Positions 2,239 through 17,066 of a DNA stretch of 21,008 nucleotides are shown piece by piece. Position numbers and translations under genes: made by a program. Under the pieces are notes generated by a model that saw only the letters and a list, made by a program, of their open reading frames with translations, did no database searches and was not told the DNA's origin. The first letter of the stretch is position 1. Every line of letters starts with the position of its first letter. The DNA is taken from the NCBI GenBank assembly GCA_001630475.1, contig KV419439.1:225163-246170 (forward strand), read 5' to 3'. Source of the DNA: Sistotremastrum niveocremeum HHB9708. Taxonomy: Eukaryota > Basidiomycota > Agaricomycetes > Sistotremastrales > Sistotremastraceae.

Positions 2239-4119
2239 ATGTCTGAGTCGCCGCCGCCAGAGCCTCCAGAGCCCATCTCAAAGCCAACATCGGAGTCCTC
2301 ACCGATGGATGCGGAGGCTAACACGTCGACTATGGCCCTATTGACAGATCAATCCAGCGCGCTGTTAGGCGCTGTGAACGCGTTGAATGATACCATGAAC
2401 GGCGTCAAGAGTACGTTGGTAGACCATGGGACGAAATTTGACGTCTTGATTAGGGACGCACTGAAGAGCGAGTCATTGACGAGCCTAGTGATATCCGATT
2501 GAATTGACGGCGACGGCAGACGATCAACCATATGACGAGAAAGCTTTGGACGATGAATCGACCTGCCTGGCGTTGTACGATATGGTGGTGGCGAAAACGA
2601 AGGAGAAAGCGGAGGAGTGGAATGGAACGATTGACGTTACGCTGATATTCGTGAGTTCATGCAGATCGTGTGGGTGACTGGCAATGAGTACTCACGATTT
2701 TGAAAATGTGACTGTCATAGATCGCTCTCTTCTCTGCCGTACTTACGGCATTCTTGGTCCCCGCAACCCAAGCCCTGCTTCCTAGCTCCAACTCCACTGC
2801 CACGAATTCCAATTCCACTTCAACTCAAACCCTTCCTCCTCTTCCAGCTCGATCGGATGAGATCGTATGTGCTTTATATTATTTGTCTCTAATCACCGCC
2901 GTAAGTCGTCGTGAATAGATCATGACAAGCAAGATCGCTGAAAGCCTACCAGATAGTGATAGCGGTACTCTGCGCGCTGGGGCGTCAATGGGTGCGCAAG
3001 CTATCCATACGACCCGACGTGGCGACATGGAAAAGTCGTACCATCTGGCACGTCGAACGGATGCGCCGAGCGGAGAAGTGGATCAAAGTCCTGATGGAAG
3101 TCCTCTACTGGCTTCTCCTCGCATCCATCGGGCTGTTTATGACTGGCCTGCTCTTCCAGCTTCGAAATCTTGCCACGTCATTCCAAGGGAGAGCAACGAT
3201 CCTCCTGGCGACGTGGGAGGTCGGAGTCGTTCTGGCTGGAGGCATTGCCGCTACCATGGTTGGGACAACGTATCATGCTGTGCGGTACGAGGCTTCGGTA
3301 TTCGAAGGGCTTGTGAGCCGAGCAATTGTTGGGGATATTGATATTGGTCTGACGACGGGCCTGAAAATCACTTATGGGATGCTGCGATATTTGAGTTGGA
3401 GAGGGTGGAGAAAGATTGGTGGACCGGTGTTCGTGAAGCGAGCGAAAATCGGTTTGGAGAGGGTCACAAGAATGACCGGGATCAAGGGAGAGAGCACGTT
3501 CGACGATAGGCTCATTGACGCGTCGAAGGAGAGTACGTTGGAGGCTAGGCGCAGTGACGCGTCGAGCGAGATCCCGAGTACGTTGATCAGTGACGCGTCG
3601 AGCGATCAACTAAGTGAGTCATCACGGTGGATGCGCGCGACACAAGCCCTACGGGATGGATTGGAGTGGCTGAAGACCTGGCGGATCAAAGTGAAACGCG
3701 ACTCGCTGGATGAGTTGATGAATGCGTACCTCGAGCTAATCGCCGACGCAAGCGATCCGATCCTCCTCGAACGGGCTGCAGCCTCTTTCCGCTACGGAGC
3801 CTGGGTGCAGTACGGAGATGGATCAATGGATCAGTTGAAGAAGATACTCAGTCGATTGATGGCGACGGATACCTCATTTCGCGTGAGAGAGACTGTAAAC
3901 GCGCAGATTTCGTGGTTCAGCGCGTGGATTCCTGTGAGACGGAAGCAGATAGAGGAGAACAGGAAAGACAGAGCAGACCAAGACAGACGGGCGAGCCAGG
4001 GAAACGGATATTTCATTGCCCAATCGCAGAAAAGGGAAGAAGAAGCGAAGAAAGAAGACGAGGAAGAACTCCGAGCACTTGAATTGACGGAATTCCTCGT
4101 CAGCCAACGCACAGACTAG
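2239..4119 (+). CDS. DUF6535 membrane protein, N-terminal part, truncated by transposon insertion (copy A)
   Basis: Exons 2239-2467, 2520-2650, 2721-2900 and 2953-4119 encode 568 aa. The DUF6535 signature follows a Ser/Pro/Thr-rich N-terminus: acidic LDDESTCLALYD, then an amphipathic WNGTIDVTLIF leading into the hydrophobic IALFSAVLTAFLVPATQALL. Further membrane segments lie at about residues 168-190, 226-250 and 262-284, giving four in all. A variable linker (about 296-416) contains three 12-13 residue repeats. It is followed by a conserved cytosolic stretch and an E/K-rich coiled coil. The family is common in Agaricomycetes and its function is unknown. The first intron uses a GC donor (2468) where copies B and C have GT. 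The stop at 4117-4119 is formed across the insertion junction (T from the target, AG from the element). The gene originally continued at 10917 and would have encoded about 924 aa. Confidence 0.8.
3490..3603 (+). repeat. Three in-frame 36-39 nt tandem repeats in DUF6535 linker
   Basis: Units at 3490-3528, 3529-3567 and 3568-3603 encode ESTFDDRLIDASK, ESTLEARRSDASS and EIPSTLISDASS. They share GAGTACGTT-like starts and TGACGCGTCGA-like ends. The repeats sit in the linker between the last membrane segment and the cytosolic domain. Copy B has an unrelated Lys/Trp-rich linker there. Confidence 0.75.
4107..4117 (+). repeat. 11-bp target site duplication, left copy
   Basis: ACGCACAGACT is identical to 10907-10917. 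A twelfth matching base (A) at 4118/10918 could belong to either the target or the element. It lies in the DUF6535 coding frame at codons for R-T-D. Confidence 0.85.
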
Positions 4120-4207
4120 GTTCGACACAAACTCCGCTCGTTGAAACTCCGCCCCTCCGCCTCGCGGAGGGGTTTGTGAATTTATGGGACCCCAAAGTCA
4201 AGCCTCG
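4118..4207 (+). repeat. Left terminal inverted repeat
   Basis: It aligns by eye, with small gaps, to the complement of 10822-10906. Shared blocks in order are AGG(T/C)TC, ACTCCGCC, CTCCG, GGAGGGG, ATGGGAC, GTCA and GCCTCG. It contains the hairpin at 4152-4172. Confidence 0.8.
4152..4172. repeat. Perfect 9-bp stem, 3-nt loop hairpin inside left TIR
   Basis: CCCCTCCGC, loop CTC, GCGGAGGGG. A smaller related hairpin sits at the matching place in the right TIR. Confidence 0.75.
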
Positions 4208-4569
4208 AGCACCCTCTAGAATCGGCCACACTCGCTCGATTTCTCCGATTTCTTTTTTCATCGCTTAGTTAGAGTCACAGGTATACTTCAGTAAATTATG
4301 AGAATTTAGTTTCCTCTGCTCTTTGTGCCAAGGACGTATCAAGCCGGAAGAGGCAAAATTTCGCAAATCTTGTGCGCAAAACATTCTGACAGCACCGGAT
4401 GATATAATGGTGGCCGGAATACCTACCGACGAATTCTTTCAACACATTAGATGATTCATTATGGCATTGGAATGTCTAAGAAATATCTCTGACGTTCCGG
4501 AGAACAGAGCTGGTTTGTGGCGTGACATAAGTCACGTTTGTGACAGAGCGCGCCTCGCTTTCCTTGCCT
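4208..4569 (+). promoter_or_regulatory. Subterminal region and 5' flank of DUF6589 gene
   Basis: AT-rich, non-coding, with runs of T near 4250. A 6-bp inverted repeat, CGTGAC-ATAA-GTCACG, sits at 4521-4536, 33 bp before the ATG, followed by another GTGAC at 4540. It could be a transcription factor or element-protein binding site; nothing else is recognisable. Confidence 0.4.
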
Positions 4570-7448
4570 ATGACTGCAAGCAGCTCTTCACGCGTCACCG
4601 AGGATACAGAGGGCGCTGAAGCATTGGAGACGCGGTGGAACGAGATTTTGGACGATACTGCAACCAAATACACTCTACAGAAGAAGCTGTACCTTATTCT
4701 CTCGCTAATCATCCATCTGAATGTCACCATCCTCTCGCTCCTCGACTTCATCTTCTCCAGCAAGAATCTCGTGGTCAAGCGTCGTGCCAGTCAATTCACG
4801 AGCTTCGTCGATAGAGGCTACGAAGTTCACTTCGGTCCTCATACGATCTGGAATCTCTGGATAACAAATTTTCCATCCGTCCACCCGCATCTCATGGAAC
4901 ACATCGTAATACCGGAGGCTCTCGAACGGGGGCGCGCGGAATTCAAAAAGGGGATTAAAAGCGATAAACTGCGTCTGAAAATAGATGGACTGAGCGTTCA
5001 AACCGTTCGAGATACGTTGGATCTGGGGCACCTGATGAGCATCTATACGGAAGTCCTGCCCTTTGTCTCTGGGTTCCTTCTGCATCTTGTCGATACCCCG
5101 AACAGGTATCGCATTGAGAAGGCTCAAAGAGAGGCACGCGCGAGGGCACGCAGGGAATCAGAGTGTGTGGGTGAGAGTGTGGTGCCTGATGAAGCTGACT
5201 TGGGGGGCGACACTGATACGGGTGATGTGCGAGATGAGGTCGAGGGGCAGGAGGAAGCCGAGGGTGTGGAAGGTCCAACGTGGAGCTCGCAAGAGGAACG
5301 ATCCCGCCTGGTGAGTGCTTCGTATCTGCAACGGAATCAATATCTGAGCAAAAGCATAGATTGTGGTCACTACCTTGTCAAACTTACTATTCGTCTGCAA
5401 CCAAGCAACGAATTACTTCGCGCTGCTTCTTGGGCTCTTCTTGACAATTGAAGGTTCCAGTGTGCGTGTCATAACCTGTCTCAATAAATTGGGGCTGTCA
5501 GTCAGTGCTCGAACCGTGGATCGCCTGCGTACCCAGCTCTCTGATGACGCAATCGAGCAAGCCCGCAAGCTTGCCCAGGGCTCCGAACCGTGGATGTCAG
5601 TGATAGACAACCTCAATATCTTCGTGCGAAAGGATCAGCAGCGCCTCGGGAACGAGAACACAATGCTCAATATCACCAACTGCGCCTTGATCAAGTTTCC
5701 ATCCTCTTTCCGATGGGAAATGTTCGACGTACCAAAGATGCTCTCGCTGCGTGGGCTCCGCAAGCATTTTGATCTGTCCTTGCTCCATCTGAACTCGATG
5801 GAGCAGCAATTTTTGAAGGACGGATTCATTGCGATCATTGCACAACGCCTGCTTGAGCACTGTCCAGGCAATCAGTTTTGGCCAGGACGATTGACAACAC
5901 GCCAAAAGTGTCTAGATCACTTGCCTAAAGTCAGACCTCTGGAACCAATCAAAACAGAAACTTTCCCCATGGGGGTTTTTGACGTTGACGAAGGGTCTAA
6001 ACGGGGTGTCATCGATGTGTTGACAGAGATTCAGGTCAGATCGGGATTGGAGAAGGCAGAGATGGCCTCAAGAGTTCGGGTGGTTGCTGGAGATCTTCTG
6101 ACAATCATGAATCTGCGGAGGGCAAGAAACTTGCGATCAGATGATGTTTCGATTTTCGAGCGTCTGTCTTACATCGCGGAAATCAGTCAGCCATTTCACA
6201 CTGGCATGAATGCGGTCACCGGGATACTGCAAACGCACTTTGGGGATTCCAATCTCAACGCAGCCAGTCTCTCAAGCCACAAGGAGCTGTTGAATCGCAA
6301 ATGGGATCCCAAGAAGGCCAACTACTCGGACGCCAAGGCCCTCGTTGGTCATTCCCTGATTGCCCGTCTGATCGACTGTTTGATGTGCGTGTTTTTGGTC
6401 TACGTCAATGAGTACTTAGTGACCTTGATGTTCTTAGGATTGAGAAAGAGTTCCCTTCATACTCAGCTTTATCTAAATGGCGTCCGAATTACGACGAGCT
6501 ACGAGATGTTGCTGAAAGGATCCACGCACATTTCCTCGACCATCGAAAGATATATGCCGCATGGGGGATTGACGGAGACGAGACGCAACGGGAGGAAGGC
6601 GATCATGTGTTTGCGCAGAGTGGGCTGTTCATGAGAGACACATTGCTGTTTGAGATGTACGATCACGGTGTTCGAAATGGAGACCCGGGTTTGTTGTGGG
6701 CTGTGATTAAGCCCTGGCTTTATTCGTTTCGAGGGGCAAAGCAACAGAATTACTCGCGGGAATGCCTGGAGTTATTGGTACGGTGGGAGACAGAGTTGAC
6801 AGTGGAGATGCGGGAAGTCCTGGAGCGAGCATGGTTTTATAACAGAGTCGGATTACCTGGGAGGTTTATCGCGATTGACATGTATCTTGAGCATCTCAAC
6901 TATTGGATCAAGGTGAGCACGATCTTGACTTGCTTACGTTAATGACGATTGATGAGTAACCGCAGCGAGTTTTCATCCCAAAAGGAGCTGGCGTGACTGT
7001 GGAAAACATTATGTCGAAAGGATCATCTTGTGTCGAAGCTCTGCGATCAATCAGTGCTAAGATGTCTGCTTTCTGCGGCATGAACGAAACAGAACGTCAG
7101 CACAAAGAGAGCGCAATTGCCGCGGACATTGAAGCATTGGTCGAGCATCTCAGGCACGAGAGGGTGCACGTCATTCAGCCGAAAAGGACCTTGTGGGGAT
7201 CGACAGTGAAACCAAAAAAAGGATCGAAGACTATACCACCAGTGCAGTCATTGGTGACTGATGTGATTGCCGATGGTATGGCCTGGTGGGACAATGAGGA
7301 GGTTCGGAAGTATATACACACGTCGGCTTGGGATGCGACACAGGGTTACACACTGCAAAGTACGGAAGCGATTGGGGTAGATACCGATTTGGACGCCACG
7401 TTAACCCTGGATTCTGAAGAGAATTTTCAGGCTGTAGAATCCTTGTAA
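4570..7448 (+). CDS. DUF6589 domain protein, candidate transposase of the element (907 aa)
   Basis: Exons 4570-5310, 5360-6384, 6438-6912 and 6966-7448 join in frame across introns of 49, 53 and 53 nt with GTGAGT, GTGCGT and GTGAGC donors. The N-terminal 247 aa are helical and end in an acidic Glu/Asp stretch. The DUF6589 region follows, with hallmark blocks LGLSVSARTVDRL, IDNLNIFVRK (Asp about 330), FPMGVFDVDE (about 449-458), VVAGDLLT (Asp about 492), QPFHTGMN (His about 527) and, near the C-terminus, EHLNYWIK. The repeated isolated acidic residues would suit a metal-dependent nuclease fold, but I see no proven DDE triad. Start choice: ATG 4570 is the first in a frame open from a GTG at 4540. 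The frames are undamaged, so the gene may be active. Its convergent partner is the helicase. Domain call is confident; transposase role is inferred. Confidence 0.85.
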
Positions 7449-7546
7449 CGTGGGTGAGGGTTGAGACGCGATTATCTTCAAAGGGCATTCTGTCGTTTAA
7501 ACACATTGTCATTGCTCACACGTTCACTCAGAATGAGGTACATAGA
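7449..7546. terminator. 98-bp convergent 3' intergenic region
   Basis: It separates the stop codons of the DUF6589 gene (+) and the helicase gene (-), so both transcripts must end here or overlap tail to tail. No clear AATAAA is present on either strand. Confidence 0.35.
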
Positions 7547-10414
7547 TTACTGTGCAGGCGGGGGCCAAGCGATGGGATACGCAGGCGAGCCATGGGGGTA
7601 TACGTATACGGGGTAGGGTGCAGGAAGTGCGTGACCGTGCATGGCTTCTGGATGGCTGTGGCCTTGAGCTGCATGTGCCCAATATCCCTGAGCGTGCGTG
7701 GGAGTCCCATAATGATGCACGGGTGTAGAGGGAATTGCGGGTGGCGGTGCTTCGTAATGAGCCATGTAAGGCTGACGAAAGCTGTGTGGCGCTGGAGGGG
7801 GTGGATACTGGTGGGGATGTTGGGGGCGAGAATACGAGGGCGGTGTAGAGGGGTCAAGATTGGTGGTGTCGGCTAGAGGTCGTCGGTGTAGCGGCACAGA
7901 CGCAACCTTCATTGGAGTCTGGTATTGTGGGACGAGAGCGTGAGCCTGCGAAGGGCCCGAGAGCACTGCACAATCACGCTCTGACTGCGAAGACGGACAA
8001 GTAGCTGGTGATGGAGTCAGTGGTTGTGTTTTGCCAGAAATGAACGGGTCGACGTTGAGGTTCTCTGATTCGTCCACGAGTGTTTGCTGACTGCAGCTCG
8101 TAAGATCATGGAGTGATCTGATGTTCGCTGGTCGAAACGGAGCCGGCGGAGGGGGCTTATCGTCTATGCGAATGGCCTTAGACTTCTGCCCTTTCCGGGG
8201 AGACTTGGGTACAAAAGTCGCTGTTGGTCGCCAGCCAATAAATACTGCATGTACCGCAGCCATATTTTCTTTTGTTGCCAGATCCCACTTTGCTCGAGCA
8301 GCGAGTTCATGAGGTGTTCGTAGGGCCTTCTTTATCATTGTTGGGCCAAACGCCACGAGTCGATCGAGGGTCGCATTAGACATCACATGGGATTCCGCAT
8401 AGAACCAAGAATCCAATTCCAGGCATCTGCGACGTCTCCACTGCAGCAGCAGTGCCTTCAAATCATCGAGAGAGTCTGGCGAAATCACATGGCCTTGCGG
8501 GATCAGAATAGGCTCAGGGTCTTGGATTACACGTGTCTCCGACGCGCTGTAACTCGACCCCTGAGCCTCTAACTGTTTTGATCCCGTCCACGACACACTT
8601 GTCGTACTCTCTTGCGCATCAGCCACTGGAATGTCCATGGCGACGTCTATATTTGGCTCCAAAGTGTTGGAATTCCCGCCAATGAGATATTTTCTAGGTG
8701 AGTTTTTCTTCTTGACGCGGACGCGCAACGAAGGATGACACACGCTACAGCATCGATGAAGCGCAGCCACCTCCGGACGCACTGAGTCTAGTTGAGATCG
8801 TATGTCTCGCTGGACCCAAGCACTGTCGACCCTCATTTCCGCGGAAACTACCCCTACGGCCTTCCGGTCCTCCTCCATGAAGTCGAAGTCCAGATACAGA
8901 TCAAGATCAGTTTTGGGCCGCAGGGTTCGGGCGAGGTATTCATGCAAACATTCTATCAGTGCGTCAGTTATATTCTCTTGATTTGGAAGCGCTCAAACTG
9001 ACCTTTTGAATTAATCATGTTATCTAGTGCGTGTTCCAACTGAGACCGCCGAGTGACTGTGTCGGTGATCTCGTCCTGCTCCTCGTCCTCTCCCTCCTTA
9101 TCCACTGTCTCCTCTTGGGCCGACTTCGTCTGTGCACCGCCCGTCGTCGGTTTTCCCTCCTTCTCAAAGGCCCACCCCGGCAGCAAGAGCCAACATTTGC
9201 CAGTTTTGCCACGACCTCGAGCGGCTCGGCCCCATCGCTGGACGCAAACTGACAGGCTTTTCAGTTTCTGGCCTACAACAACCACAATGGCAACGTCCAA
9301 GGCATTGCAACCCATGCCTGCAGCGTCCGTCGAGCACAATATCCGAATTGAGCCATCTGAAAAGCGCTGCCAGGTATCCTCCTTCCCATCGTCTGACAGA
9401 ATTGCATTAAACGCGAATGCAGCGTCCGCCAATGGCTTGGGTAGTAGAGCCCGGAAGCTCAGCACTGCCTGTATCGTGGCATCCTGCGTTGGAAAGTACG
9501 CTAGGATTTTTGGTATGTCTTCTATTTTTGAATTCCCATCCAGCGACCTGAGCTCGGGCACCAGGTCCATGATATCCAATACCGGATCGTTCGCGTGCAC
9601 CAGCTTCTGAATCACGTATGTTAGCTCCGGCCTTCGACAACCGACGTCTGTGCCCCAAAACGGCCGGTGACCGTAATCGAGCGAGTCCCAGACAGTCCTG
9701 AAGCTCCCCGTTGTCAAAGTGCCAGAGCACGCAACAAACGGTACTGTTGAGCCTGTATAACACCGCATGCGACTGAGATCTTTGTAGGCCTTGCGAAATT
9801 CATCGCCCCATTGCTCAATACAGTGAGCCTCGTCAACCACCATGGCCAACAACCGTTTGCGAAAGTCGGGCTGCGTGCAAAGGGACCGGAAGGCATTCGA
9901 CAGAGCCATCTCGGGAGAGACATACACCAGTTGGTATTCGCCATTTTTGAGATTCTTCCATACTGTTGCCTTGTCTTTGGTAGATTCATTCAGTGCCGCT
10001 GCACGAAGGCCCTTTGCTTGGGCTGCAGCCACCTGATTGAAGGTGAGTACACTGCTTCAAAACTACACGCCCACCGACCTGATCATTCTCTAAGGCTTTC
10101 AAAGGACATATCACAACAACTGTCTTTGTCGTCGCCTGTGCCGCCAAGCCTTCAAATACCAAACTTTTCCCGTATCCTGTACCGGCGACAAAGATCACGT
10201 CTTTTCCGCCCATCACTGACAGTATAGTTCGTGCCTGCCATTCCTCAGGCTCAAACCCCAATTTGAATCTTTTCTTCAGGCTTTTTGCCAGCTCTTTCCA
10301 CTCATCCTCTCCATATTCCTTCACCGGATGCACTCGCTTGCGTGGGGGACGTTTCCGGCGCCTGGAAGGGGATCCAAGCAGGGGACTCCCTTCGAGAGCA
10401 GATATATGAGGCAT
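7547..10414 (-). CDS. RecQ-like superfamily 2 DNA helicase of the element (923 aa)
   Basis: Exons 10414-10079, 10032-9003 and 8952-7547 join in frame across introns of 46 and 50 nt. Helicase motifs run in order: AGTGYGKS (Walker A, residues 77-84), CPLKAL (Ia), VVDEAHC (Walker B, DEAH 179-182), CSGTL (motif III, SGT in place of SAT), ILAYFPT (IV), CSTDAAGMGCN (V, about 345-355) and QRWGRAARG (VI, 377-385). A CCSVC cluster at 523-527 could be part of a Zn site. The last roughly 200 residues are Pro/His/Tyr-rich and low-complexity, unlike cellular RecQ/BLM proteins, and I see no clear RQC or HRDC domain. The N-terminus is basic (RRRKRPPRKR), a likely nuclear signal. The enzyme is expected to unwind DNA with ATP. 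Its place between the TIRs suggests a role in element excision, repair or replication, which is inference. Confidence 0.88.
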
Positions 10415-10821
10415 AGCCTCTTAGTGGGCGACAAAGAGAGATCTGGAGAGCAAATCGTGTGGTGCGGCAGGCTGGCGCGCGAGAGAGCGCGTCAGTCACG
10501 TGATGGGAACGACTGGCCATTAAACTGGTCGATTTATCGTCCTCGCCTGTGCGTCGTCAAAATATTCAAGTGAAGGTATGTATCTTGTCTGGGACATGCC
10601 ACGGTGTGAAACAAAAGTTGTTTATAATTTCATGAGCTCGCACTGCCTTGGGAACCAATGATTCTGAAAATTCAGAGCCTCTTTGAAGATCCCTCATGAT
10701 TTCATACGTGTAGACCGAATTAAATATTTTTTAAATTTGTAATTGATTCTAAAGAGTCACAGTCTATGCCATACAAAATTTCAGAATTATTGAGCGCGTG
10801 TCGTTGAAGTGAGGGCGGCGA
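10415..10821 (-). promoter_or_regulatory. 5' flank of helicase gene and right subterminal region
   Basis: Non-coding. It holds a CACGTG E-box palindrome at 10497-10502 and a CGCGC-GAGAGA-GCGCG inverted repeat at 10476-10491, both within 90 bp of the start codon. A strongly AT-rich stretch follows near 10720-10750. A 10-nt AGAGTCACAG at 10753-10762 also occurs at 4271-4280 in the left subterminal region, in direct orientation. Confidence 0.4.
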
Positions 10822-10906
10822 CGAGGCCTGACCAGAAAGTCCCATGATGGCATAAGCCCCTCCTACGGAGGTGTGGCGGAGTACGAAGCGGGGTTAGAAT
10901 GAGCCT
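10822..10906 (-). repeat. Right terminal inverted repeat
   Basis: Its complement aligns with 4118-4207 (see left TIR). It includes the inverted repeat CCTCC-TAC-GGAGG at 10859-10871, the counterpart of the left-end hairpin. The last bases, AATGAGCCT, supply an ATG in frame with the host exon. Confidence 0.8.
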
Positions 10907-12034
10907 ACGCACAGACTACATCTCTGAGCATTTCACTCCAACGTGGGAAAACTGCTCTGACATCTTGCACCTCCTTTCTCTCCCATTCGACAAATTCATC
11001 GCCCAATGTCTCTGCATAAACAGCCACAACGTCAGATTGGGAAATCACTATGCCATATTCAATAACTCTACAGTCCATTGCTACAATCTGCTTCGGGCCG
11101 ACAAATCCGATGACGTCACGCGCATCCTTTCCCATGTCGATCTGTTTTCCGCTGTGAGATCCTTCGTCCTCGCCGATCGATACGTGTGGGGGTACGAGCG
11201 TGTTCTCGAGTTGATCATCGGCGATCGCACTTCCGATGTACTTCGCCTCCTCAACGAATGCCTTTCGACTTCACGAGTCAATCCCCGATGCGGATCTTCT
11301 GTCTTTCTGGTGGCTGCTCGTTCCCTCTCTCACCTCCCCTCAGACGTCGATCTTTCCTTGATCATCTCGCACATCGCTTGGTATCCGTCACGGTGGGAGT
11401 GGCGCGATGCTAGTAACATGTTGATTACCCATCTCGCGCAGTGCGACATCTCGGCGTTGTCCAAGCGCAGCGCAGTCTACAAGTTCCTTCAGCATTGTGT
11501 TGATCGAGAATTTCGTGACACCCGTGGATGTCGTTTTGACACTAGTGAAGAAACTCGCCACGCTGCTCAAACTCTCTTGGATCGTACGTCTTCCTCTACC
11601 ATTCTCCAAACTCATCTAACATTTGATCAGAACACCGGGCTCTTTTCATTCCTCTACCTCCTCCGTCTCCCCAATCAGCCTCCATCAACCTTACAGAAGA
11701 TACTTCCGAGTCCTCTGAAGATGACTGGTTTCGCCATAGAGCAAATTCAGATCAGTCCGAAGACGGCTTAGCACCCTCGCCGGGTCCCTTGGACCCTGAC
11801 CCTGACAATCCATCGGAGAGGCAGATCTATCCCTTGGACCCTCTACCTTTTTATCCCAACTGTCTAACGGCAAGTGAAGACCATGAGCTCATCGACATGA
11901 CCATGCCGCCCGTACCTCCTGGGTCCGGCTCGTTACCATCTTCGTCTTTCAGTAGAGTGATGACATATCTGAGTCGACCCGCACGCGCTGTGTATAATTG
12001 GCTGCGCTCGCTCAGGAATCCTCAAGACAGATGA
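10899..12034 (+). CDS. DUF6535 protein, C-terminal part, displaced by transposon (copy A)
   Basis: This is the 3' half of the gene that starts at 2239. Coding of target origin resumes at 10907 and continues to 11583. A 47-nt intron follows (11584-11630: GTACGT donor, CTAAC branch site, GATCAG acceptor), then exon 11631-12034. It aligns throughout with copy B, for example FTPTWENC, LLSLPFDKF, DKSDDV and HVDLFSAVRSFVLAD. Without the intron the frame would stop at 11771 in unconserved sequence. The last residues (SEDHELIDM, then about 40 more) extend past the end of copy B. The ATG at 10899 lies in the transposon end and is in frame, so a 362-aa product is possible if a promoter exists. Otherwise this is the orphaned end of a split gene. 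Confidence 0.75.
10907..10917 (+). repeat. 11-bp target site duplication, right copy
   Basis: ACGCACAGACT, identical to 4107-4117. It encodes R-T-D in the resumed DUF6535 frame. Confidence 0.85.
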
Positions 12035-14294: not shown

Positions 14295-17066
14295 ATGTCG
14301 GATTCATCCCCTCCAACCACAGAGCCTCCGCCGACAACGAAGTCAGATGGCGACGCCCATGACGCATCGGTAACGGCACTGTTGACGAGTCAATTCGGTG
14401 CGCTGCTGGATGCTGTGAAGACGCTGAACGTTACCATGGATGGAGTGAAGACTACGCTGGTGGACCACGGGAAGAAATTCGATATCTTGACCAGGGACGC
14501 ACTGAAGAGTAAGCCAATAATAATCCACAATTGAAGAGACGTTGATAAGGCTTTGTAGATGATCAGCCGTATGACCAGAAAGATCTGGATGACGAATCCA
14601 CGTGTATGGCGCTTTATGATATGGTCATGGCCAAGACCAAAGAGAAGGCGGATGAATGGAAAGAGACAATGGAGGTGACTCTGATCTTCGTGAGTCTTCG
14701 TAAGGCACATCTAGACGCGTATGACAAATCAGTATAGATTGCGTTATTCTCAGCGGTGCTCACCGCCTTCCTCGTTCCTGCTACGCAGGCTCTCTTGCCC
14801 AACTCTACTACTTGCGGAAATTCCACGTCCTCTTCGTCGCAGCCTCCTCCGCTCCCACCCCGATCTGCCGAGGCTGTTTGCGCATTTTATTATCTATCAT
14901 TGATTATCGCAGTGAGTAATGATAACACTGTAACGACTTTCGACTCAACTTACGAGGGTGTCAGATAATCATTGCGGTATTATGCGCACTCGGACGTCGC
15001 TGGGTGAGGAAATTGACGATCAAACCGAACGTCAAGACCTGGCGAGAGAAGATGTTCTGGCACATCGAGCGTATGCGCCGAGCCGAAAGCTGGCTCCAGG
15101 CACTCATGGAGGTCCTGTATTGGATGCTCCTGTCCTCCATTGGACTCTTCATGAGCGGACTGCTCTATCAACTGTGGAATGTCTCGCACTCGTTCGAAGA
15201 AACGGCGTCTATACTCCTTGCTACCTGGGCACTGGGTGTCATACTCGTATGCGGCATTATGTCCACGATGATCTCGACCACGTACCACGCTGTCCGATAC
15301 CAGGGCTCGGTGTTCGAAGGCTTGGTCAGTAGGGTCATCGTTGGAGAAGTGAAATTCGAAGTCGGTCTTGCAGGTCGCGTTCAGAGCATTTGGACGTGGT
15401 CCAGGCTGGGAGCTGCGAGAGCGAAGAATTGGTTCGAGCAGCTGAAGATCAAAGACTTGTTGAGAGGCGTGCGCCCGTGGATCAAAACCGTCAAGCTAGC
15501 AAATCTTCTGAAGAGAACAAGTCGATGGATCCGGGCCCTGGTGGGGAGTAAGTCGTGGAAGTCGTTGGGAAGGAGGGCGAGAAACATCTGGTGGAAGAAG
15601 TTGATAGAGAAGTTGAATTTTTCGAAGAAAGCGCGCGAGTGGATCAAAAAGACCAGAGTTGAGGTTGAGTGCGAATCCACAGAGAAACTATTCGCGACAT
15701 ACCTGGATCTGATCGGAGAAACCAGTGATCCTACTCTACTGGATCGTGCGGTGGCCTCTTTGTCGTATCGAGACTGGATGCAGTATGGACGAGGATCGGT
15801 GGATCAGTTGCAGAAGGTCTATACGCGATTGATGGCGACTGATACCTCATTCCGCGTGAAGGAGACGGTCACCGCGCAGATTTCTCGGTTCAGCGCGTGG
15901 ATCCCTAAGAGACGGAAGCAGATAGAGGAGAACAGGGAAGACAGAGCACTCCAAGACGGGTGGGCGAGAGAGGGAGATGAATATTGGATAGCACAATCGA
16001 AGGAAAGAGAGGAAGAAGCGAAGAAAGAAGAAGAAGAAGAAGCCCGAGCAATTCAATTGACGAGGTTCCTCCTCAGCCAACGGAAAGACAACATCTCTCG
16101 TGGGTTCACTCCAACGTGGGAAAACTGCACTCACATCTTCGATCTCCTTTCTCTCCCATTCGACAAATTCGTCGCCAAGTGTCTCTGCATTCACGACCAC
16201 AACATCAACTTGGGAGATCACCAGTACATCTTCTTTTGGTCTGTCAATCATTGCGACGACCTCCTTCGAGCTGACAAATCCGATGACGTCATGCGCATCC
16301 TTTCCCATGTTGATCTCTTTTCCGCTGTGAGATCCTTCGTCCTCGCCGATTCCTACGAGTCTTGGTACGATCGTGTTTTCAAGTTGATCATCGGCGATCG
16401 CAGGACTGAAGTTCTTGGCTTTCTCAACGAATTCCTCTCGACTCCTCGTGATTGGTCCAGTGTCGATTCCGGTGGGGCTTCTGCTGTCTTCCTGATCGCT
16501 GCTGGCTCTCCCCCTAAGTTCCCCTCTGACCTCGATCTCTCCCCAATCATCGTTCACATCGGTCGACATCCTTCATTGAAGAACTGGACGAAAGCTAGTG
16601 ATGCATCGATCGCATATCTCATGCGATGCGACATCTCGGCTTTGTCGGAGCGTCGCGGAGTCCACGAGTTCCTTCAACATTGCGTTGATCGGGATTTTCG
16701 TGACGAGGATGGATACTACTGTGATACGAGTGAGGAAACTCGCCACGCTGCTCAAACTCTCTTGGATCGTACGTCTTCCTTTGACATTCTCCAAGCTCAT
16801 CTAATGTTTGACTAGAACACCAAATTCTCTTCAGTCCTCTACCTCTTCCGACTGCCCCAGGAGCTTCTATCGATAATGCAGAAGATATGCCCCAGTCTTC
16901 GGGCCAGAATCCGTGCCCCAATATCCCAGATTCAGACCAGATTCATCTCCCTCACGACGTCGCCTCGACCTCTGAACCTGACGACCCGCCTGAGACGCAC
17001 ATCCCACTGCCGAGTGAAGACCACGAGCTCATCGACATGAGCATGCCGTCGGAACCTGGCATTTGA
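14295..17066 (+). CDS. DUF6535 membrane protein, intact (copy B, 857 aa)
   Basis: Exons 14295-14508, 14559-14689, 14738-14911, 14965-16768 and 16816-17066 join in frame. Introns are 47-53 nt with GTAAGC, GTGAGT, GTGAGT and GTACGT donors. Order: Pro/Ser/Thr-rich N-terminus; DUF6535 block (LDDESTCMALYD to ALFSAVLTAFLVP, about residues 80-136); membrane segments at about 116-136, 161-185, 220-244 and 255-278; conserved YHAVRY and GSVFEGLVSRVIVG; a Lys/Trp-rich variable linker; conserved MATDTSFRV; a poly-Glu coiled coil; then a helical C-terminal domain (FTPTWENC to HVDLFSAVRSFVLAD) and an acidic Pro-rich tail. The TAG at 16813-16815 is a splice acceptor, not the end, because the next exon is open and matches copy A. 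It stops about 40 residues earlier than copy A (after SEPGI). Function unknown; likely an integral membrane protein with a large cytosolic part. Confidence 0.82.

Follow-up and report, generated by a model that had tools for sequence, protein, structure and literature searches.

Contig KV419439.1 of Sistotremastrum niveocremeum HHB9708 (genome 34.7 Mb, 111 contigs) carries a DUF6535-type gene that is interrupted by a long stretch of DNA, which raises the question of what this stretch is and how it came to lie there. To answer it, positions 225,163 to 246,170 of the contig were analyzed; this whole stretch of 21,008 nucleotides is referred to as the window, and other contigs of the assembly are designated C5, C9 and so on. 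The gene is interrupted by an element of 6,791 bp at window positions 4117-10907. It is probably a complete DNA transposon that appears to be autonomous and represents a new family. A 9-bp target-site duplication (TSD) and a helicase with DEAD and Helicase_C domains fit published accounts of the AcademH lineage, to which this family most likely belongs.

An element with terminal inverted repeats splits the host gene

When the element and one 9-bp repeat were removed in silico, an open host frame of 671 codons was obtained. Across the joint the restored frame reads SQRTDYISEHFTPTWENC, and an uninterrupted paralogue within the same window (15004-16815) reads SQRKDNISRGFTPTWENC at this place. The upstream host half now terminates at a TAG (4117-4119) with which the element begins, and an ATG at 10899, inside the right end of the element, starts a frame that continues in phase into the 3' half of the gene (open reading frame (ORF) 10899-11771). 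The insertion thereby splits the predicted host protein. The outer 120 bp of the two ends are imperfect terminal inverted repeats (TIRs) with 83 of 107 aligned bases identical and an alignment score of 64; no score exceeded 35 in 500 shuffles or 40 among 500 randomly paired host stretches. The original prediction, made from the window alone, had placed a complete TIR transposon within a DUF6535-type exon and had stated that the host frame rejoins exactly. The TIRs, the TSD and the uninterrupted paralogue support the former, and the open frame of 671 codons, in agreement with the paralogue, supports the latter.

The repeat flanking the element appears to be 11 bases long (ACGCACAGACT at 4107-4117 and 10907-10917), and a TSD of 11 (or 12) bp had been claimed. 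This length is ruled out by the other copies of the element. Where both ends of a copy lie on a single contig, the termini TAGG and CCTA are shared and the duplicated flank is 9 bp, with 8 or 9 of the 9 bases matching, and the adjoining T and A belong to the element. Among the seven TAGG copies tabulated, an A directly before the TSD was found in the window only, and a T directly after it in the window and C36 only. Because the window copy has both by chance, its repeat looks 11 bp long; it consists of the 9-bp TSD and the element's own terminal T and A. Of the nucleotide-level borders proposed originally, the edges of the insertion are thus real, but the borders had to be shifted to 4117-10907 with a TSD of 9 bp.

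A 9-bp duplication was found at eight of the nine loci with TAGG...CCTA ends, with 70 of 72 bases matching, and the eight loci carry eight different duplications. The nine loci leave out C31, which has other ends, and C9, for which no convincing ends were found. Beyond TAGG, the terminal sequence ATGAGCCTA is common to six of the seven tabulated TAGG copies, C20 being the exception. The same ends at nine loci, the duplications at eight and the uninterrupted paralogue refute the explanation that the stretch is normal genic sequence, an insertion resembling an intron or an artefact of the assembly; no point supporting it was found, and we consider it almost certainly wrong.

A short palindrome lies about 36-56 bp from the tip in the left ends of the window copy, C36, C12 and C51, and C37 has a larger one further inward. 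Six ends were folded and compared with 200 shuffles each. The left end of the window copy (z -1.98; 9/200 shuffles folding equally well), C36, C37 and C51 each had at most 9 shuffles folding as well. The C12 end was unremarkable (71/200), and folding of the right end of the window copy was no better than that of its shuffles (z 0.37; 124/200).

Related copies are present elsewhere in the genome

A search of the genome with the end sequences gave at least five matches to the left end and at least five to the right end, the window included. In a pattern search with up to three mismatches, at least six left and at least five right ends were detected, and reversed control patterns gave none; all repeat counts from the genome searches are lower bounds. 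The check proposed originally, a search for further copies that have these ends but duplications of their own, thus had a positive outcome in the same genome (Table 1), and the absence of any other copy, which had been named as a refutation, does not apply.

A second element carrying the DUF6589 gene described below was located on C5 by its protein. Its ends were the top-scoring of many candidate pairs (21 versus 18 for the next) and agree with the independently found family ends. DUF6589 was found at four loci in total (window, C5, C31 and C9), and at all four it faces a DEAD-type helicase gene.

The copies on C36 and C13 have the same internal deletion, retain about 500 bp of each end and are 92.8% identical, and they lie at different sites with their own TSDs. 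As the same deletion occurs at different sites, the deleted copy appears to have moved in trans. Gene capture was considered for the 1008-bp copy on C12, in which the longest stop-to-stop frame is 130 amino acids (aa). A left end on C51 and a right end on C39 had no partner when ends were paired within contigs. They were paired afterwards by their position at contig ends and by the 9 bp that they share, and are taken as one copy probably cut by an assembly gap. This copy (C51:210500-214132, C39:336500-339297) also seems to be interrupted by a second transposon, with the contig break inside the latter. The ends of the second transposon are inverted (AGGACCCTGG...), its duplication is 8 bp long (GGTCTACG), and it carries a gene that, judged by eye, resembles a Ulp1/C48-type protease.

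The element encodes a probable transposase and a RecQ-like helicase

Two convergent genes, both with open reading frames, were modelled in the element: a DUF6589 gene of four exons on the plus strand and a helicase gene of three exons on the minus strand. Both models are sequence-based predictions that rely on splice sites; comparison with the C5 copy additionally underlies the DUF6589 gene and exons 1 and 2 of the helicase gene. The DUF6589 gene is predicted to encode a protein of 907 aa, which matches Pfam DUF6589 with an E-value of 3.2e-101 over positions 6-410 of 410. The DUF6589 proteins of the window and C5 are 45% identical over 873 codons, with proportions of nonsynonymous (pN) and synonymous (pS) differences of 0.396 and 0.735, and for the helicase pN was 0.348 and pS 0.773 over 442 codons. 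These values indicate that selection has maintained both genes and that synonymous sites are close to saturation. D330, D492 and E740 are among the residues invariant in three full-length DUF6589 proteins, and among the invariant residues they would be the likeliest catalytic ones. The DUF6589 protein is likely the transposase of the element. Pattern searches for its relatives gave 3 and 83 matches in viral contigs and 247 in bacterial and archaeal genomes, none of which was confirmed. On C9, the DUF6589 gene (about 62.9-67.2 kb) is split by another transposon. The latter contains a DDE_1 gene (E 2.8e-08) as well as a frame of 627 aa for which Pfam gave no match.

In Pfam, DUF6589 is a family without function and has no transposase annotation. 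The match of the window protein to DDE_3 (E 0.064; 13.6 bits versus a cut-off of 28.6) is too weak to count, and a literature search on the name DUF6589 found no link to helicase-bearing transposons, which may exist under other names. These observations speak for a separate helicase-bearing lineage outside Academ, in which DUF6589 would form an independent transposase superfamily generating duplications of 9 bp. The length of the TSD, which equals that given for AcademH in a passage of PMC10045372, and the helicase domains, which are among those attributed to AcademH, known from Basidiomycota, in part of PMC10799480, argue against it, and we regard such a lineage as unlikely. A broader version, in which DUF6589 would be the transposase of a whole helicase-bearing fungal lineage with a fixed 9-bp TSD, more than one type of end (TAGG...CCTA, and CATTCTCC... 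in C31) and a regular RecQ-type partner, perhaps as a superfamily distinct from Academ, appears doubtful.

The helicase model contains the domains PF00270 (DEAD) and PF00271 (Helicase_C). It also has a GTGYGKS sequence, which corresponds to the Walker A motif, and a DEAH box. The best PDB matches of the first 533 residues were RECQ1 (7.1e-27), WRN, E. coli-type RecQ and RECQ5; exon 3 gave no Pfam match at E 0.01. Another RecQ-like helicase gene lies near a contig end at C77:56951-58784; it contains a CCENC cluster and shares 32% identity with the helicase of the element. No DUF6589 match is listed for that contig, and four end patterns were absent in the 7,004 bp searched.

Mutator-like elements (MULEs) are characterized by long TIRs and by TSDs of around 9 bp. 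The imperfect TIRs of about 100 bp and the 9-bp TSD would therefore suit a MULE, but the Pfam matches obtained for the proteins of the element include no MULE transposase domain, and MULEs are not known to carry a RecQ-like helicase. A MULE was rejected for lack of this domain among the matches and is very unlikely.

The target duplication of Kolobok elements is TTAA. KolobokH, a fungal Kolobok lineage with a RecQ helicase, was considered on account of the RecQ-type helicase in a fungal transposon (PMC9587614, in part). Against it stand the eight different 9-bp duplications at eight loci, which are not TTAA, and the helicase of the element, which has a gene of its own on the other strand; one Kolobok of a red alga is described in a passage of the same source as having a RecQ gene on the complementary strand. 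KolobokH was rejected on these grounds and is, like a MULE, highly improbable.

Features of the window and the host gene family

The coordinates of all features are given in Table 1.

Table 1. Annotated features of the window and copies of the element elsewhere in the genome
Feature	Position in window	Length	Strand	Evidence or remark
Element, complete, TAGG...CCTA termini	4117..10907	6791 bp	.	Termini common to other copies; 9-bp TSD outside
Left TSD CGCACAGAC	4108..4116		+	9/9 identical to right copy
Right TSD CGCACAGAC	10908..10916		+	9/9 identical to left copy
Left TIR, imperfect; palindrome 36-56 bp from end	4117..4236		+	83/107 alignment with right end
Right TIR, imperfect; carries ATG at 10899	10788..10907		-	83/107 alignment with left end
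Probable transposase, exon 1	4570..5310		+	GT/AG sites and C5 comparison
Probable transposase, exon 2; invariant D330-N331 and G491-D492	5360..6384		+	DUF6589 1.3e-43 for containing ORF
Probable transposase, exon 3; invariant D736 and E740	6438..6912		+	DUF6589 2.1e-34 for ORF within exon
Probable transposase, exon 4 and stop	6966..7448		+	Gene model
Helicase, exon 1; GTGYGKS	10079..10414		-	DEAD match; gene model
Helicase, exon 2; DEAH box, Helicase_C	9003..10032		-	Pfam match; gene model
Helicase, exon 3; cysteine cluster CCSVC, long proline-rich tail	7547..8952		-	Gene model
Host DUF6535-type gene, 5' part	2956..4116		+	DUF6535 5.3e-09; TAG at 4117-4119 now terminates frame
Host gene, 3' part	10917..11771		+	Frame matches 5' part after removal of element and one TSD
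Host-gene paralogue without insertion (natural empty site)	15004..16815		+	DUF6535 23.6 bits, slightly below 23.9 cut-off
C13 copy		991 bp		TSD 9/9
C36 copy		992 bp		TSD 8/9
C12 copy		1008 bp		TSD 9/9
C37 copy		124 bp		TSD 9/9
C20 copy		80 bp		TSD 8/9
C5 element, located by protein, TAGG...CCTA		6106 bp		TSD GCCAACGCG 9/9
C51 left end and C39 right end				Both reach contig ends; common AGGCTCCGA 9/9

Two frames of the window scored as DUF6535 (5.3e-09 and 5.2e-05), the latter slightly under the cut-off. Portions of the host gene are repeated two or three times within the window (1-21008). There thus seem to be tandem paralogues, and the loss of one may be tolerated. In a comparison of the host gene with the paralogue, the ratio of nonsynonymous to synonymous substitution rates (dN/dS) was 0.16 for the 5' part, with a dS of 2.14; for the 3' part dN/dS was 0.57 and dS, at 0.42, was much below that of the 5' part. 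This contrast may reflect relaxed constraint, gene conversion or exchange, or some other history, and gives no date for the insertion.

Discussion

TIRs are among the features of AcademH, a lineage of Academ DNA transposons. The lineage was reportedly set out in Kojima 2020 (Mob DNA 11:15). According to a passage in PMC10045372, TSDs are 9 or 10 bp long in AcademH and 3 or 4 bp in AcademX. Transposon-derived DEAD and Helicase_C domains are attributed to AcademH and KolobokH in an excerpt of PMC10799480, which also describes AcademH as having a low copy number in Basidiomycota, Ascomycota and Mucoromycota. Academ and 19 other superfamilies are assigned a DDD/E transposase in part of PMC9587614, and an extract of PMC8290104 mentions many putative non-autonomous Academ elements in the genome of the mushroom Marasmius oreades. 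Cut-and-paste transposition, with AcademH as a candidate, had been suggested from the start; the 9-bp TSD and the DEAD/Helicase_C gene agree with it and make AcademH the best filing for the element.

Several observations weigh against an assignment of the element to a new AcademH family. It is likened to AcademH by its TSD and helicase, not by homology of the transposase. No relative of the DUF6589 protein was found in the PDB in searches with the three-protein alignment and with exon 2; an augmin subunit (E 0.028, alignment) and ROP (E 1.3, exon 2) were dismissed as meaningless matches. A structure model of exon 2 alone (341 aa, no alignment) had a predicted local distance difference test (pLDDT) score of 33.7 and was unusable for recognizing an RNase H-like fold. 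The element on C31, taken to be 5635 bp long, has different termini (CATTCTCC..., 17/20 bases; top-scoring of many candidate pairs, 26 versus 20 for the next) next to a duplication ATTGCAACC that matches at 9/9 bases, no convincing ends were found for the DUF6589 locus on C9, and a right end on C18 stands alone, with no partner within 9.9 kb. Finally, identity to the closest copies is 85-88% across roughly the outermost 200 bp and 73-78% over end parts of about 500 bp, so no near-identical or recent daughter copy is seen in this genome assembly.

This last point also bears on the age of the insertion, which the original prediction had called recent and possibly active. A perfect TSD, two open gene models and a host frame that is open on both sides favour recency, but no near-identical copy was found in the genome. 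Recent activity of the element is therefore kept as plausible.

For the proposed AcademH element, the following mechanism can be envisaged. Acting as a DDE-type transposase, the DUF6589 protein would bind the TIRs, cut the element out and join it to target DNA whose two strands are cut at a spacing of 9 bp. Opening of the ends or processing of a gapped intermediate might be aided by the RecQ-like helicase, and the copies of 80 to about 1000 bp would have been moved in trans. With base-exact ends, TSDs, open gene models and short copies that seemingly moved in trans, the locus offers the components required for a transposition assay. Such a system could also address why a RecQ-like helicase should be necessary for cut-and-paste transposition. 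It is further suggested that fungal proteins annotated as DUF6589 are transposases, which should be masked as mobile DNA and not be counted as host genes.

Compared with known systems, the element resembles KolobokH in being a fungal DNA transposon with a RecQ-type helicase, and differs from it in its TSD (TTAA in Kolobok) and in its gene layout. Its TIRs are long, as in MULEs, and its TSD is similar in length to theirs (about 9 bp); unlike them, it has a helicase, and no MULE transposase domain was found. Although the element is not assigned to any named family, its likeness to AcademH extends to the 9-bp TSD, the TIRs, the DEAD/Helicase_C helicase, the small number of copies and the fungal host.

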